58,774 bases of DNA from NCBI RefSeq assembly GCF_009711445.1, contig NZ_SMMC01000211.1, positions 1-58,774 of the forward strand, read 5' to 3'. Every line of letters begins with the position of its first letter. Within the stretch, counting starts at the first letter, position 1. A program made the translations under genes and the position numbers. Under the pieces are notes generated by a model. That model saw only the letters and a program-made list of their open reading frames with translations. It had not been told where the DNA came from and did no database searches. This stretch comes from Curvivirga aplysinae (GTDB lineage Bacteria > Pseudomonadota > Alphaproteobacteria > UBA8366 > Aestuariispiraceae). This document shows, piece after piece, positions 25,555 through 50,022 of this stretch.

Positions 25555-26023
25555 TTATTCTATCTCTTTTAAATGACGCTTCACCCAAGCCATCTCAAAA
25601 AGATCGCCTTTCCAACGATACATAAATATCGGCGCAAGAATAGCTGCAACAAAAGGCTGCGCAGAAATTGGAATGAATCTTTTAACCTCGTTTATATCTG
25701 TTAGAGCAACAAACCCAACCAAAACACTATAGGAAACAGCATATGTAATAGATATAATTAACAACGCATTTTTTAGATGATAAGAATTACGTTTCGCATA
25801 TCTCATCCTCAAAAAAAAGACTGATGGGAATTTGTAGGAATAATATTCGGGTGAGGAAAAAAGGTATTAATAATAAAGCAACGACTGGATAATCGCTGAA
25901 TTTACCAGGTAAACCGACAAGCAGTACAGCCGAGCTAAACATCAGAATATAAAGTAAAACAAACTCGATACCCCATTCCAGAAACAGTAGTTTCAAATAT
26001 CTTGGTAATACCAATTTACGCAT
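25555..26023 (-). pseudogene. Frameshifted small membrane protein, paralogue of the upstream gene
   Basis: Two overlapping reading frames (26023 down to 25787, and 25812 down to 25555) together rebuild one 155-aa membrane protein when a single T is removed from the 8-T run (plus strand A8, 25811-25818). The repaired reading gives ISLFLRMRYAKR, which aligns with LSLYLRIRAAKS in the 157-aa gene just upstream, and TRILFLQIPISL aligns with TRLVYLQIPLSL. About four hydrophobic segments. The start overlaps the upstream stop by 8 bases with GGGGGA as ribosome binding site. The break may be a real mutation, phase variation, frameshifting or a read error. No family recognised. Confidence 0.72.
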
Positions 26024-26489
26024 CTTTTCCCCCTAACTTACGAGACTTAGCCCAAGTCACCTCAAAAAGTTCTCCCTTTAGTTTATAGGTAATATAAGGA
26101 GTAAGCATGGCACCTAAAAATTGACTTATATTCACAATAAAGTCACTTTCTAAATATCTGAGCAAACTAATACCGTCCCACTTCATTCCAGCTAAAAAGA
26201 TAAAATAAGATGCACAGTAAATAGATATTATAATCTTATAGGCATTTTTAAGCGTATAATCCCGACTTTTGGCTGCCCTGATACGCAAATATAGGCTTAG
26301 AGGAATCTGAAGATAAACTAAGCGGGTGATCATACCTACTATTGCAATGAACATTGCCGCCCCTAAACCCCAGTTACTGTCATAAAATACATTTTGTATA
26401 ATCATGAAAGATGCCCCAAATATTGAGCATAAACAAAATTCAAAAAGCAGCTCATAAGCAATTTGATATCCTAGCTTTGTCGGTTGCAT
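26016..26489 (-). CDS. Small four-helix membrane protein of unknown function
   Basis: 157-aa hydrophobic protein with about four membrane segments (roughly 8-32, 40-66, 84-102, 118-136) and a charged C-terminus (LFEVTWAKSRKLGGKDA). A tandem paralogue follows on the same strand, overlapping by 8 bases. It is 21 bases after the unknown 481-aa gene with a strong GGGAGGAAG site, so the three form one operon. I recognise no family. Duplicated small membrane proteins after a large soluble protein can be immunity proteins or membrane anchors, but no motif decides this. Confidence 0.7.
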   Translation of the reverse strand: MQPTKLGYQIAYELLFEFCLCSIFGASFMIIQNVFYDSNWGLGAAMFIAIVGMITRLVYLQIPLSLYLRIRAAKSRDYTLKNAYKIIISIYCASYFIFLAGMKWDGISLLRYLESDFIVNISQFLGAMLTPYITYKLKGELFEVTWAKSRKLGGKDA

Positions 26490-26510: not shown

Positions 26511-27956
26511 TTATCTTTCTTGACTTTTATAAAGTTGATCCACCATTGTCTTCCCTAATTTAATTCGATCACGAAGATTGCTCATATCATAATCATCTTG
26601 CGGAAAAACGCTCCTATGTGCCTCAGCAACTGCCTGATTTACAAAGGAATTATGAAGATAATTTTCCCAAAAATTATTTAAATTACTTAACCTTGCATAT
26701 ATTTTATCTTCATCAACTTCAGGGTTATTTTTAAAATATAAATCACTTAACTCCTCTACCTTGCGTTGCTCTAATTCCACAAGGGCATAATCCAGTTCTT
26801 TACCTCTTAATCCTTCCAATCCTTTAATTTCTTGGCCATGATAGAGGGATTGAAAAGTTTGGTAATTCATTTTGGCCAGTTCATGATGTACAAATTGCAG
26901 ATAATCTTCTTCGTCATCATTAACCATCCCATAGTTCCATTTATCTTCTGCAGCATAACCAAGTGCATTTTCAGAGGTAACTTCGGCAGCTGCTTTAAAC
27001 CATTTGGATTTTATCGCCCCTTCCTTATTATTAAGCGCTATATGCATTTTCCCATAATTTTCACTATTCTCCAAAATTGTCTCGCCTGGTTCGATCGGGA
27101 TTTCTAAAAGTTTTTTCTGTCCCTTTTCTTTATATGAAAGGATCAAAGGCTTTTTTTCACGCTTTTGGGTATCGTAAGGAATTTGAGATATGTTTGGCCC
27201 TTCCAGATCATATCGAACCTTTGAATCTGCATTTTTTTTCAACACATCCGCATATTTTTGCAGGATAGGCCCTGTAATACCGCTTAATTTGTGGGCAATT
27301 TCCGGATCGGCCCGATAAACTCTTTTATTCAAATCATTTAAAACGACTTCTCCCCCATTGGGATCATCCTGCATCATCCGATGAAATAAGTCTGGCAACC
27401 CGTTCGTTTCCGATGACTTCGTGACCAAGGTATTTTTCAGACTTTCATTTTCCTGCTTTGCCGCCTCACTAATTTGTGGGGGAAACTGGCTTGCCGTTGG
27501 CTTTGACATAGGACCTGTCTGGCCTTGATGAACTTCTTTGGTCAGCTGCGTAGGCGCAAATTTCGCAACAGGTCGTTTTATGGGTGCCTTTTTGAAGGAT
27601 TGTGGACGTTCTTGAAATTCAGCCCTATCAAGAGTTGGCTTGGCTTTTGGTGCCTTAAACAAAGAATCCCCATCTATGGCTTCATCTTTCAACTCAACCA
27701 TATTTGATCTCTTTTTGTTCTCTTCATTATTTACAGAAAGAGCTGTATTGAGCAAGGGTTTTTGATCCATATCCAAAGGGGCAAAAGTATCTACACTTTC
27801 ATCATATCCATCTATCTCTGTGTCTTGTGACACATCATCGTCAAAATTGTTTTCTAACAAATTTGTAGGCTTAAGGGTCTGTATACCACCCATACCACCT
27901 GATTTTTTATCCATTTGTGACGATTGTGCATCCGTACCATCTGAGATACCGCCCAT
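26511..27956 (-). CDS. Unknown low-complexity protein, paralogue of the gene at 47977-50022
   Basis: 481 aa from the ATG at 27956, chosen for AAGGAG seven bases upstream; a longer in-frame extension has no such site. The N-terminus starts MGGI and is Ser/Asp/Lys/Pro-rich and probably disordered (about 1-160). Residues about 162-227 form a conserved module shared with the 681-aa protein (NxLVTKSxExNG, MxxDDPxxG, DLxxxV, DPxxAxxLS). The remainder is charged and probably helical. No signal peptide, membrane helix or catalytic motif seen. Leads the operon with two membrane proteins. No known family recognised. Confidence 0.7.
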   Translation of the reverse strand: MGGISDGTDAQSSQMDKKSGGMGGIQTLKPTNLLENNFDDDVSQDTEIDGYDESVDTFAPLDMDQKPLLNTALSVNNEENKKRSNMVELKDEAIDGDSLFKAPKAKPTLDRAEFQERPQSFKKAPIKRPVAKFAPTQLTKEVHQGQTGPMSKPTASQFPPQISEAAKQENESLKNTLVTKSSETNGLPDLFHRMMQDDPNGGEVVLNDLNKRVYRADPEIAHKLSGITGPILQKYADVLKKNADSKVRYDLEGPNISQIPYDTQKREKKPLILSYKEKGQKKLLEIPIEPGETILENSENYGKMHIALNNKEGAIKSKWFKAAAEVTSENALGYAAEDKWNYGMVNDDEEDYLQFVHHELAKMNYQTFQSLYHGQEIKGLEGLRGKELDYALVELEQRKVEELSDLYFKNNPEVDEDKIYARLSNLNNFWENYLHNSFVNQAVAEAHRSVFPQDDYDMSNLRDRIKLGKTMVDQLYKSQER

Positions 27957-47486: not shown

Positions 47487-47969
47487 ATGATGCGCCTCAA
47501 ATTCTGTGCTTTGTTGTTACTATATCTTGGCTTGACCTCTCCTGCCTTTGCAGGATTTGAAGAAGGCAAAGCCGCCTATGACGCAGGTGATTTCGAGACA
47601 GCAAAACAAGAATGGCTTCCCCTCGCCAAAGCAGGAGATGCAGAAGCACAGTTCTGGATGGGGAAATTATATCATCCATCCAAAAAGGAATTTATCGATA
47701 TTGATCAGGCAATCTATTGGTATTCCCTCGCCGCAGAACAGAATTACAAAAAAGCGCAGAAGCATCTTTCCGCCGCATATGTTTTCAAAAGACCCGCTTC
47801 AAAATACATTTATGATGTTATTAAGTGGGCGATTATCGTCTATAGACAGCATAATGATCCAGACCTAAAAAATGCACTAAATGCACTTAAAGAATCTATA
47901 CCCATAGAAATATATAACGATGGCGTAAAAATGGGGGAAGAGTGGCTAGACAGCCACTCTAACAAATAA
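47487..47969 (+). CDS. Secreted Sel1-repeat protein
   Basis: 160-aa protein with a signal peptide (about 1-22, ending AFA-G) and at least two Sel1/TPR-like repeats (KQEWLPLAKAGDAEAQFWMGKLYHP and YWYSLAAEQNYKKAQKHL regions, about 39-92). Such small periplasmic proteins mediate protein contacts; the partner is unknown. Two ATGs follow GGGAGAAG, at 47487 and 47490, either could be used. It meets the convergent 681-aa gene with a gap of 7 bases. Confidence 0.8.
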   Translation: MMRLKFCALLLLYLGLTSPAFAGFEEGKAAYDAGDFETAKQEWLPLAKAGDAEAQFWMGKLYHPSKKEFIDIDQAIYWYSLAAEQNYKKAQKHLSAAYVFKRPASKYIYDVIKWAIIVYRQHNDPDLKNALNALKESIPIEIYNDGVKMGEEWLDSHSNK

Positions 47970-47976
47970 AACTAAA

Positions 47977-50022
47977 TTATAAGTTTAGTTGATCTAAGAA
48001 TTTCTGTCCTCCCTTCTCCAACACACCCTCCGTTGCTTTATTGCCGCCTATTTTCTCATTTCCTTTTTTGGCCGCTTTACCAATCATAAAGCCTCTCGCA
48101 TAATTGCCAATCAAGGCTTGAGAAAAGGCGCGGCCTGCGTTGAGGCTGAGGGTCGGGTTTTTCTCTAGGAAAGTGCGGATGGCAACGGGATTGGTGAGAT
48201 CAACGCCTGCCTCTCGATAGAGCTGGGTCATGCTTTGTTGTTGGGCTTGTTGGCCGGCAGCAAAGGCATCGGTGACAGATTTCACTTTACCTGCCCCCTT
48301 CGCTGTCTTCACCATCATGGAAGGTACACGTGCCACTGGTGCCCATGACACAAGTTCAAACCCTGCTTCCAACGCCTGTTTTACCTTCCCTTTTTCCAAG
48401 GCTTTCTGAATTTCTACGCCACGTGGATCATAGTCTGGATTTGGAATACCGGGATACTGAGCCAGATGCTGATAGGATTTTGCCAAGGCCTCTGCCCCAT
48501 CCTCAATGACTTTGTTCAATTCATCTGGATTTGAACCATCAGGGAGACCTCGTTCCCGCATGATTTTTCGTTGTCGTGTCAGTTTATGAGCAAGGTTAGT
48601 TTTCTCTGCCAGCATAAGTTCACGTTGAGCCAAAGCTTCACGCGGATGAATATTCTCATTATCCATAATGGGAATTGAAAGTTGTATATCAATCTCTTTC
48701 AATCGCGCCATACGATGCCTTAACAAGACATAATCCGTTAACTCTGTAGATTTTGCATGAAAATCATCAATGGCGTCACTGCGTTCTTCGAAATAAGTTG
48801 CTTCGTCACCTTCTTTCACATTGGCCCAATAACGGCGATTTTCTTCTACCTTATCGACAACTTTCGGGTCCTCTAAATCTTCATCACTTAAAACCCGGGT
48901 AATATAGCGATATTTATTCGGATCCACCCGATGAAGCAAACTGGCCCGGATCAAGTTATCATCAGGATATTGTTCCAGAATCTGTTTTTCCAAAACTGCC
49001 TTTTTGTCATCATGATAAGGATCATTAAATAACCCACCTTTCCACTCCGAAATCTGATTATTCAGTTGAACCGCGGGATGCACTTCCTCGGCTTTTAAGA
49101 ATTTAGGTATACCCGATCTGCTATAGGCCAAAGACACGACCTGAGAAAGTCTTGCCGCAGTTTGTGGATCTTCCTTATCCACTTTGGTCACAAGATCCTC
49201 AATCACGGCACGCCCTGCCACAGGATCATCTTTCAACATGGTTTCAAAAACACCCTGAAAACCGTTCACCTCACCAGATTTAGTCACCAACAAATTTGCA
49301 AGGCGAGTATTTTCAGTGCGGGCTTCTTCACTTATCAATGGTTCAGATGTAGCCTGTTGCTCTTTGGCTTTTGGAACCTTTTGTTGCGGCAAAAGTTGTT
49401 TCGCAGGCGCTTGTTGCCCCAGTGTTTGCTTCTGCTGTGCTAAATTGACTTCAGCTGTCTTGGCAGACGGTTTTTTTATGAATGGTGTTTTTGCCATAGG
49501 AACTTTTGGGGCAGCAGATTTCACATGCGGCATTTTAACCAAAGAGGAAGCTTGCATAGATACAGACTCTGCTTCCTTTTCTGCTGCCTCATTTCGTTGA
49601 TCCATCAATTTATATTCTTGCTGACGAGCCTTTTCTTGAAACGCCTTTTGGTCTGCTGCCATCTTGGATTTGATTTTGCGGCCTTCTTGTTGTTGCTGTT
49701 GGAAAATCTCTACCTGATCGGGTTCTTCTACCTCAACATCCAACATATCCGGATCATCCAATATGGGTTGAGAAACAGAATTTATTTTTGTTGTTGATTT
49801 GTTCTTATAATTATTTAAAGTAAAATCAGATGAATTATCAGAGAAAGTAGATTTTGTAAAAGAAGAGCTATCCGTTTCTTCTTCCATCCCACCAGAAAAA
49901 TCGAAAGAAGAAAGATTTTGTCCACGCGTTAAGAGCCCACCTTTTTCTTCACTTCCTTGCTTCATATAGTCATTTGAATAATTGCTATTCTTGTTATTTG
50001 TTTCTGTGGCCATCCCACCCAT
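47977..50022 (-). CDS. Unknown low-complexity protein, paralogue of the gene at 26511-27956
   Basis: 681 aa from the ATG at 50022, chosen for the AGGAGGTAA site upstream. Starts MGGM; about 1-100 is Ser/Asn/Asp-rich and about 105-225 is Gln/Lys/Ala-rich, coiled-coil or disordered. Residues about 230-293 are the module shared with the 481-aa paralogue (about 28 identities in 65). A C-terminal third (about 560-680) is Ala/Gly-rich with hydrophobic stretches (SWAPVARVPSMMV). No signal peptide or catalytic motif. Unlike its paralogue it has no membrane genes behind it. No known family recognised. Confidence 0.7.
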   Translation of the reverse strand: MGGMATETNNKNSNYSNDYMKQGSEEKGGLLTRGQNLSSFDFSGGMEEETDSSSFTKSTFSDNSSDFTLNNYKNKSTTKINSVSQPILDDPDMLDVEVEEPDQVEIFQQQQQEGRKIKSKMAADQKAFQEKARQQEYKLMDQRNEAAEKEAESVSMQASSLVKMPHVKSAAPKVPMAKTPFIKKPSAKTAEVNLAQQKQTLGQQAPAKQLLPQQKVPKAKEQQATSEPLISEEARTENTRLANLLVTKSGEVNGFQGVFETMLKDDPVAGRAVIEDLVTKVDKEDPQTAARLSQVVSLAYSRSGIPKFLKAEEVHPAVQLNNQISEWKGGLFNDPYHDDKKAVLEKQILEQYPDDNLIRASLLHRVDPNKYRYITRVLSDEDLEDPKVVDKVEENRRYWANVKEGDEATYFEERSDAIDDFHAKSTELTDYVLLRHRMARLKEIDIQLSIPIMDNENIHPREALAQRELMLAEKTNLAHKLTRQRKIMRERGLPDGSNPDELNKVIEDGAEALAKSYQHLAQYPGIPNPDYDPRGVEIQKALEKGKVKQALEAGFELVSWAPVARVPSMMVKTAKGAGKVKSVTDAFAAGQQAQQQSMTQLYREAGVDLTNPVAIRTFLEKNPTLSLNAGRAFSQALIGNYARGFMIGKAAKKGNEKIGGNKATEGVLEKGGQKFLDQLNL

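Follow-up and report, generated by a model that had tools for sequence, protein, structure and literature searches.

Two proteins encoded in a 58,774 nt stretch of DNA from Curvivirga aplysinae (contig NZ_SMMC01000211.1, the whole of which is referred to here as the window) are very probably antibacterial polymorphic toxins of a single family, in which a trafficking front is joined to a toxin tail and accompanied by an adjacent protecting gene. They are designated effector A (481 aa, 26511..27956) and effector B (681 aa, 47977..50022), and both genes lie at the predicted positions on the minus strand, the plus-strand translation of either span being full of stops. A constant front, an exchangeable tail, a tail-specific neighbour, orphan tails and strings of partner genes are together the anatomy that defines polymorphic toxins, among whose hallmarks are immunity genes in strings and orphan cassettes at the 3' end (PMC3482391). 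The original prediction, made from the sequence alone, had likened them to secreted or polymorphic effectors, and a polymorphic effector is what is now supported by the swapping of tails, the occurrence of one tail in an RHS protein, the presence of DUF6973 and PBECR1 tails in other members and the small genes linked to the tails. Judged on sequence, the family appears to be a new carrier class, or front, of a known kind of system rather than a new kind of system.

Effector A is made up of an MGG leader (residues ~1-160), a module (~162-228) and a putative C-terminal type A toxin domain (~288-478), and effector B of an MGG leader, the same module (~230-296) and a putative type B toxin domain (~337-676). 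The proteins begin MGGI and MGGM respectively, and since a good ribosome-binding site precedes both ATGs the shared MGG start is credible. The N-terminal halves, originally described as disordered and Lys/Pro/Ser-rich, contain no hydrophobic segment, and it is their richness in K, D, S, P, E and Q that suggests disorder. BLASTP aligned residues 93-228 of A with 155-296 of B at 34% identity and 72.4 bits (E ~1e-17), compared to 25 bits for the best of 200 shuffled copies, with a dense core of conservation at A 162-227 and B 230-293 that has the predicted borders and contains the predicted motifs LVTKSxExNG and DDPxxG. The module, of about 60 aa with the consensus [IL]SxEAxxxNxRLAxxL..S..[NS]GL...PxxxxxxxxDL, lies at 27275..27473 in effector A (aa ~162-227) and 49135..49335 in effector B (aa ~230-296), both on the minus strand. 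The C-terminal parts, which had been said to differ strongly, are mutually unrelated by BLASTP. No named family is matched by the module, for which the original prediction had named none, or by either tail; no family in Pfam, NCBIfam or PADLOC describes effector A or effector B, and the front (MG leader plus module) found no match in Pfam, NCBIfam, PHROGs or PADLOC and bears no recognisable export marker. Below the cut-off, a match between the 681-aa protein and Tymovirus (E 0.0045) was judged to be due to chance, as were small PHROGs matches.

The original prediction had spoken of a family of two members, but a profile hidden Markov model of the module recovered members from two taxonomic families of the order, in nine of 43 genomes, and at least four occur in the window's own genome (G000; other G numbers denote related genomes and C numbers contigs), namely effectors A and B and proteins on C76 and C179. 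The C76 member starts MGGMATGEN... and has the module followed by an in-frame stop and then, in the same frame, a DUF6973 domain (E 5e-20). The C179 member (628 aa) starts MGGIATEQ... and carries the tail of effector B at 32% identity. Three further proteins (G012, G005 and G013) start MGT and combine the module with tail B, which was related to the window type by profile comparison (E 1.7e-6; reversed control 0.09). Tail A (288-478) recurs in G012, G010, G002 (twice) and G013 at 38-42% identity, and its relatives with a visible front, in G012, G010 and G013, start MGS and have a module-like segment in the same relative place (profile comparison E 6.6e-6; reversed control 0.09), the leader and module of the G013 locus being in two different frames. 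The model also reached a second family of the order, with module matches in G015 and G025 (E ~1e-6 to 1e-7), whose tails are of an unnamed kind and 47% identical to each other. More weakly it matched an MGG-start member in G002, whose tail is the nuclease domain PBECR1 (E 5.6e-8), and an MAG-start protein in G007 with a tail of unnamed type. A constant N-terminal region is thus found with about six types of C-terminal domain (A, B, DUF6973, PBECR1, the G015/G025 type and the G007 type), of which DUF6973 (PF22322) and PBECR1 (PF18809) are absent from the two window proteins. A module match in G009 (E 0.003) was discarded, the protein being Pro-rich and OmpA-like. Nearly all members from the Aestuariispiraceae start MG and several fit MGxxx[ST] over residues 1-6. 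The contig bearing the C76 member (L003:1429-2796) ends about 430 nt beyond it and shows no evident immunity gene. In the G025 member (L065:3003-5326) a weakly matched domain of the peptidoglycan-binding type (PF01471, E 2e-4) precedes the module, and the coding sequence is broken between the module and the tail by a transposase-like gene, with no such interruption in the G015 homologue.

Tail A, the predicted toxin domain of effector A (26514..27095, minus strand), has homologues in these Aestuariispiraceae relatives and at the C-terminal tip of an RHS protein of Flavivirga aquatica, which belongs to another phylum (E 3e-17 within the candidate set). The Flavivirga protein has an RHS core by TIGR03696 (Rhs_assc_core) with an E of 4.3e-7, just under the cut-off of that model, and tail A is therefore a C-terminal domain common to a protein with a different, known toxin front. 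There tail A is followed by an overlapping open reading frame (ORF) for a membrane protein of 130 aa and four helices (L025:5590-6994), with no detectable sequence relation to the Rhodospirillales partner proteins. Of the AlphaFold models proposed in the original prediction for the two C-terminal parts, that of tail A was usable (predicted local distance difference test, pLDDT, 81; predicted template modelling score 0.81) and gave an all-alpha domain, and the single-sequence model of the C-terminal part of the 681-aa protein was unusable (pLDDT 48). Invariant residues of tail A, in the numbering of the modelled segment, are N100, D125, E132, Q133 and R200, and no segment reaches the transmembrane threshold used. 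Among 385 alphaproteobacterial genomes tail A was found only in G000 and as a remnant in G005, and it is therefore rare outside the family. Viral contigs scanned with tail A and the module gave no relatives, leaving a phage origin without support, and a plasmid collection gave no match to tail A or tail B.

Wherever the locus is complete, tail A is directly followed by a gene for a multi-pass membrane protein, its start often overlapping, and the partner proteins of the different Rhodospirillales loci are mutual homologues. In the window the partner is a 157-aa protein (26016..26489, minus strand) whose gene starts 21 nt after the toxin stop and which is probably the immunity protein of effector A. 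In G010 and G002 orphan pieces of tail A lie downstream together with a second putative immunity gene, and two putative immunity genes stand in a row in G013, a tandem arrangement seen also in the window.

Tail B is accompanied by a different partner. A 160-aa Sel1-repeat protein (47487..47969, plus strand) with a hydrophobic, signal-peptide-like N-terminal segment is encoded convergently, 7 nt from the effector B stop, and is probably its immunity protein; it matches PF08238 with an E of 1.9e-6 and 28.7 bits, just under the curated cut-off of 30.7 bits, which the Sel1 partners in relatives exceed. Tail B recurs at four further loci (G000:C179, G012:C190, G005:C22 and G013:C89), each of which ends against a convergent gene, with a spacing to the Sel1 gene of 9 nt at C179, a 4-nt overlap at G012:C190 and an 11-nt overlap at G005:C22. 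At G013:C89 an orphan tail B lies between the effector and its convergent Sel1-like gene, a downstream toxin-tip cassette comparable to those of tail A in G010 and G002. An apparent array was seen in G007 (L068:2884-7000), where an effector with an unknown tail is followed by a convergent 453-aa repeat-like protein with a signal-like N-terminus, an orphan tail-B-like ORF and another short convergent ORF, but sequence support for this array is weak and the G007 orphan is correspondingly the weaker case.

The census of neighbouring genes suggested in the original prediction thus revealed small membrane or Sel1 genes directly after the tails across genomes. The conserved adjacency of these genes to tails A and B, together with the nuclease domains of other members, makes an immunity role for them probable, Sel1 repeats, predicted export and a position adjoining the toxin being combined in the partner of tail B. 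In the mechanism proposed, the constant front (the MG-start disordered leader and the ~60-aa module) would carry the protein out of the producer and the variable C-terminus would be the toxin, from which the producer would be shielded by the product of the gene abutting the 3' end, an inner-membrane protein of several passes for tail A and an exported Sel1-repeat protein for tail B. The predicted locations of the immunity proteins suggest that both tails may act on the inner membrane of a neighbouring cell or in its periplasm. Tails would be exchanged or duplicated at the 3' end of the gene, leaving behind orphan pairs of tail and immunity gene.

Several systems already described are close to this arrangement. 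The polymorphic toxin systems of Zhang et al. 2012 (PMC3482391) share with it the constant front, variable toxin tail, adjacent immunity gene, orphan cassettes and immunity strings, but the front of the window proteins is without a known family or recognisable export marker. The RHS-repeat toxin of F. aquatica has a homologous tip and a membrane ORF next to it, whereas effector A has no RHS repeats and carries the new leader and module instead. In the Tme/Tmi pairs (PMC7046647) membrane-embedded immunity proteins, mostly of three to six helices, likewise have their genes immediately behind a C-terminal toxin domain, but there is no family match and most Tme domains have a predicted helix, which tail A lacks at the threshold used. 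The type VI secretion system (T6SS) toxin PldB (Tle5b) has Sel1-like repeat immunity proteins (Tli5b), according to a citation of that work in PMC13133936, and in this respect resembles tail B, which differs in matching no phospholipase family and in having its Sel1 gene convergent.

A number of observations weigh against the polymorphic toxin interpretation. Tail A and tail B match no named toxin family, and comparison of tail A with PDB sequences, and by Foldseek with the PDB and viral models, produced nothing significant and no solved-fold match. In the C179 protein the MGG leader and tail B are present but the module could not be detected, so that the module is not strictly needed, and membership of the G002 and G007 proteins is weak by the module alone (E 1.5e-4 and 3.8e-3). 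Lastly, G000 gave no match to models of VipB, Hcp, VgrG/GPD, phage sheath or VirB4 (type I, II and III secretion systems were not searched), leaving the T6SS, extracellular contractile injection systems and the type IV secretion system (T4SS) without support in this genome, which is an estimated 98.8% complete; as the assembly is in 216 contigs, the absence of a T6SS is strong but not absolute. No secretion machine is linked to any of the four G000 effectors, which sit among what we take, from reading by eye, to be housekeeping-like genes (murJ-like, hslV-like and atpC-like). A literature search on DUF6973 and on secretion systems of the Aestuariispiraceae found nothing.

How such proteins would be delivered can be answered in several ways, and a possibility that we advance only tentatively is that the MG leader and module form the substrate signal of an undescribed Rhodospirillales export route in genomes without a T6SS, T4SS or contractile injection system, tails A and B being new toxin-immunity types and A an all-alpha domain without a known structural relative. 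Rather unlikely is a variant of the same toxin reading in which the proteins are T6SS cargo effectors, the front being a marker and the T6SS of G000 having been lost or missed in the assembly. MIX and RIX are N-terminal marker domains of the T6SS, and genes for its orphan effectors commonly lie away from the T6SS cluster. The FIX marker occurs with PoNe (PMC6688995), and effectors with these three markers resemble the window proteins in joining a short N-terminal marker to interchangeable toxin tails; some known T6SS effectors also have membrane immunity proteins, the Tme/Tmi pairs among them. VipB is present in each of G002, G010, G012 and G013, the four relatives whose tail A is substantial, and in G005, but it is also common in the family in genomes without the module (G001, G009 and G011), so that co-occurrence is uninformative. 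Moreover, G000 has four members yet no match to T6SS parts, and the module-bearing G015 (100% complete) and G025 gave no VipB match, which argues that the front is not tied to the T6SS. Neither effector matched a MIX, FIX, PAAR, VgrG or Hcp-fusion marker in Pfam or NCBIfam, although these libraries may lack models for MIX, FIX and RIX.

A second variant, that the proteins are colicin-like bacteriocins freed by lysis whose leader and module bind and cross the outer membrane of the target, is improbable. It would account for the Gly/Ser-rich leader, the membrane immunity proteins and the failure of the models tested to find a secretion machine in G000, and the immunity genes of pore-forming colicins are convergent, as is that of tail B. 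However, no alphaproteobacterial LexA-type box (GTTCN7GTTC) was found within 300 nt upstream of 14 members, no obvious lysis gene is adjacent (a genome-wide search for lysis genes was not made), the neighbourhoods have the housekeeping appearance already noted, and the Flavivirga RHS protein indicates that tail A is used elsewhere with a different carrier. That the effectors target a eukaryotic host and not bacteria is very improbable: the name of one relative, the isolate Pacificispira spongiicola, hints at a sponge host and nearly all members share the MG start, but immunity-like genes are consistently adjacent, and it is effectors without such genes that have been set apart from conventional polymorphic toxins (PMC3482391). 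A structural or scaffold role, which the original prediction had thought equally plausible and to which the long low-complexity front and the want of a recognised catalytic domain in the two window proteins might point, is scarcely credible in the face of swappable tails, a tail A borne at the tip of an RHS protein, PBECR1 and DUF6973 tails and orphan tails with duplicated partner genes.

As antibacterial polymorphic toxins, the two effectors and their relatives would extend the bacterial warfare proteins by a carrier front of a new type and by two or more new toxin-immunity types, from a poorly studied alphaproteobacterial lineage, and since G000 matched none of the machine models tested the family may offer a direct way of looking for an unrecognised export route. 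The tandem arrangement beside effector A arises from a second putative membrane immunity copy (25555-26023), split between two frames and either decayed or the product of an assembly error. Its 78-aa N-terminal part (25787..26023, minus strand) aligns to the N-terminal half of the 157-aa protein and of the probable immunity proteins of relatives, and its 85-aa C-terminal part (25555..25812, minus strand) is 37% identical to the 157-aa protein.
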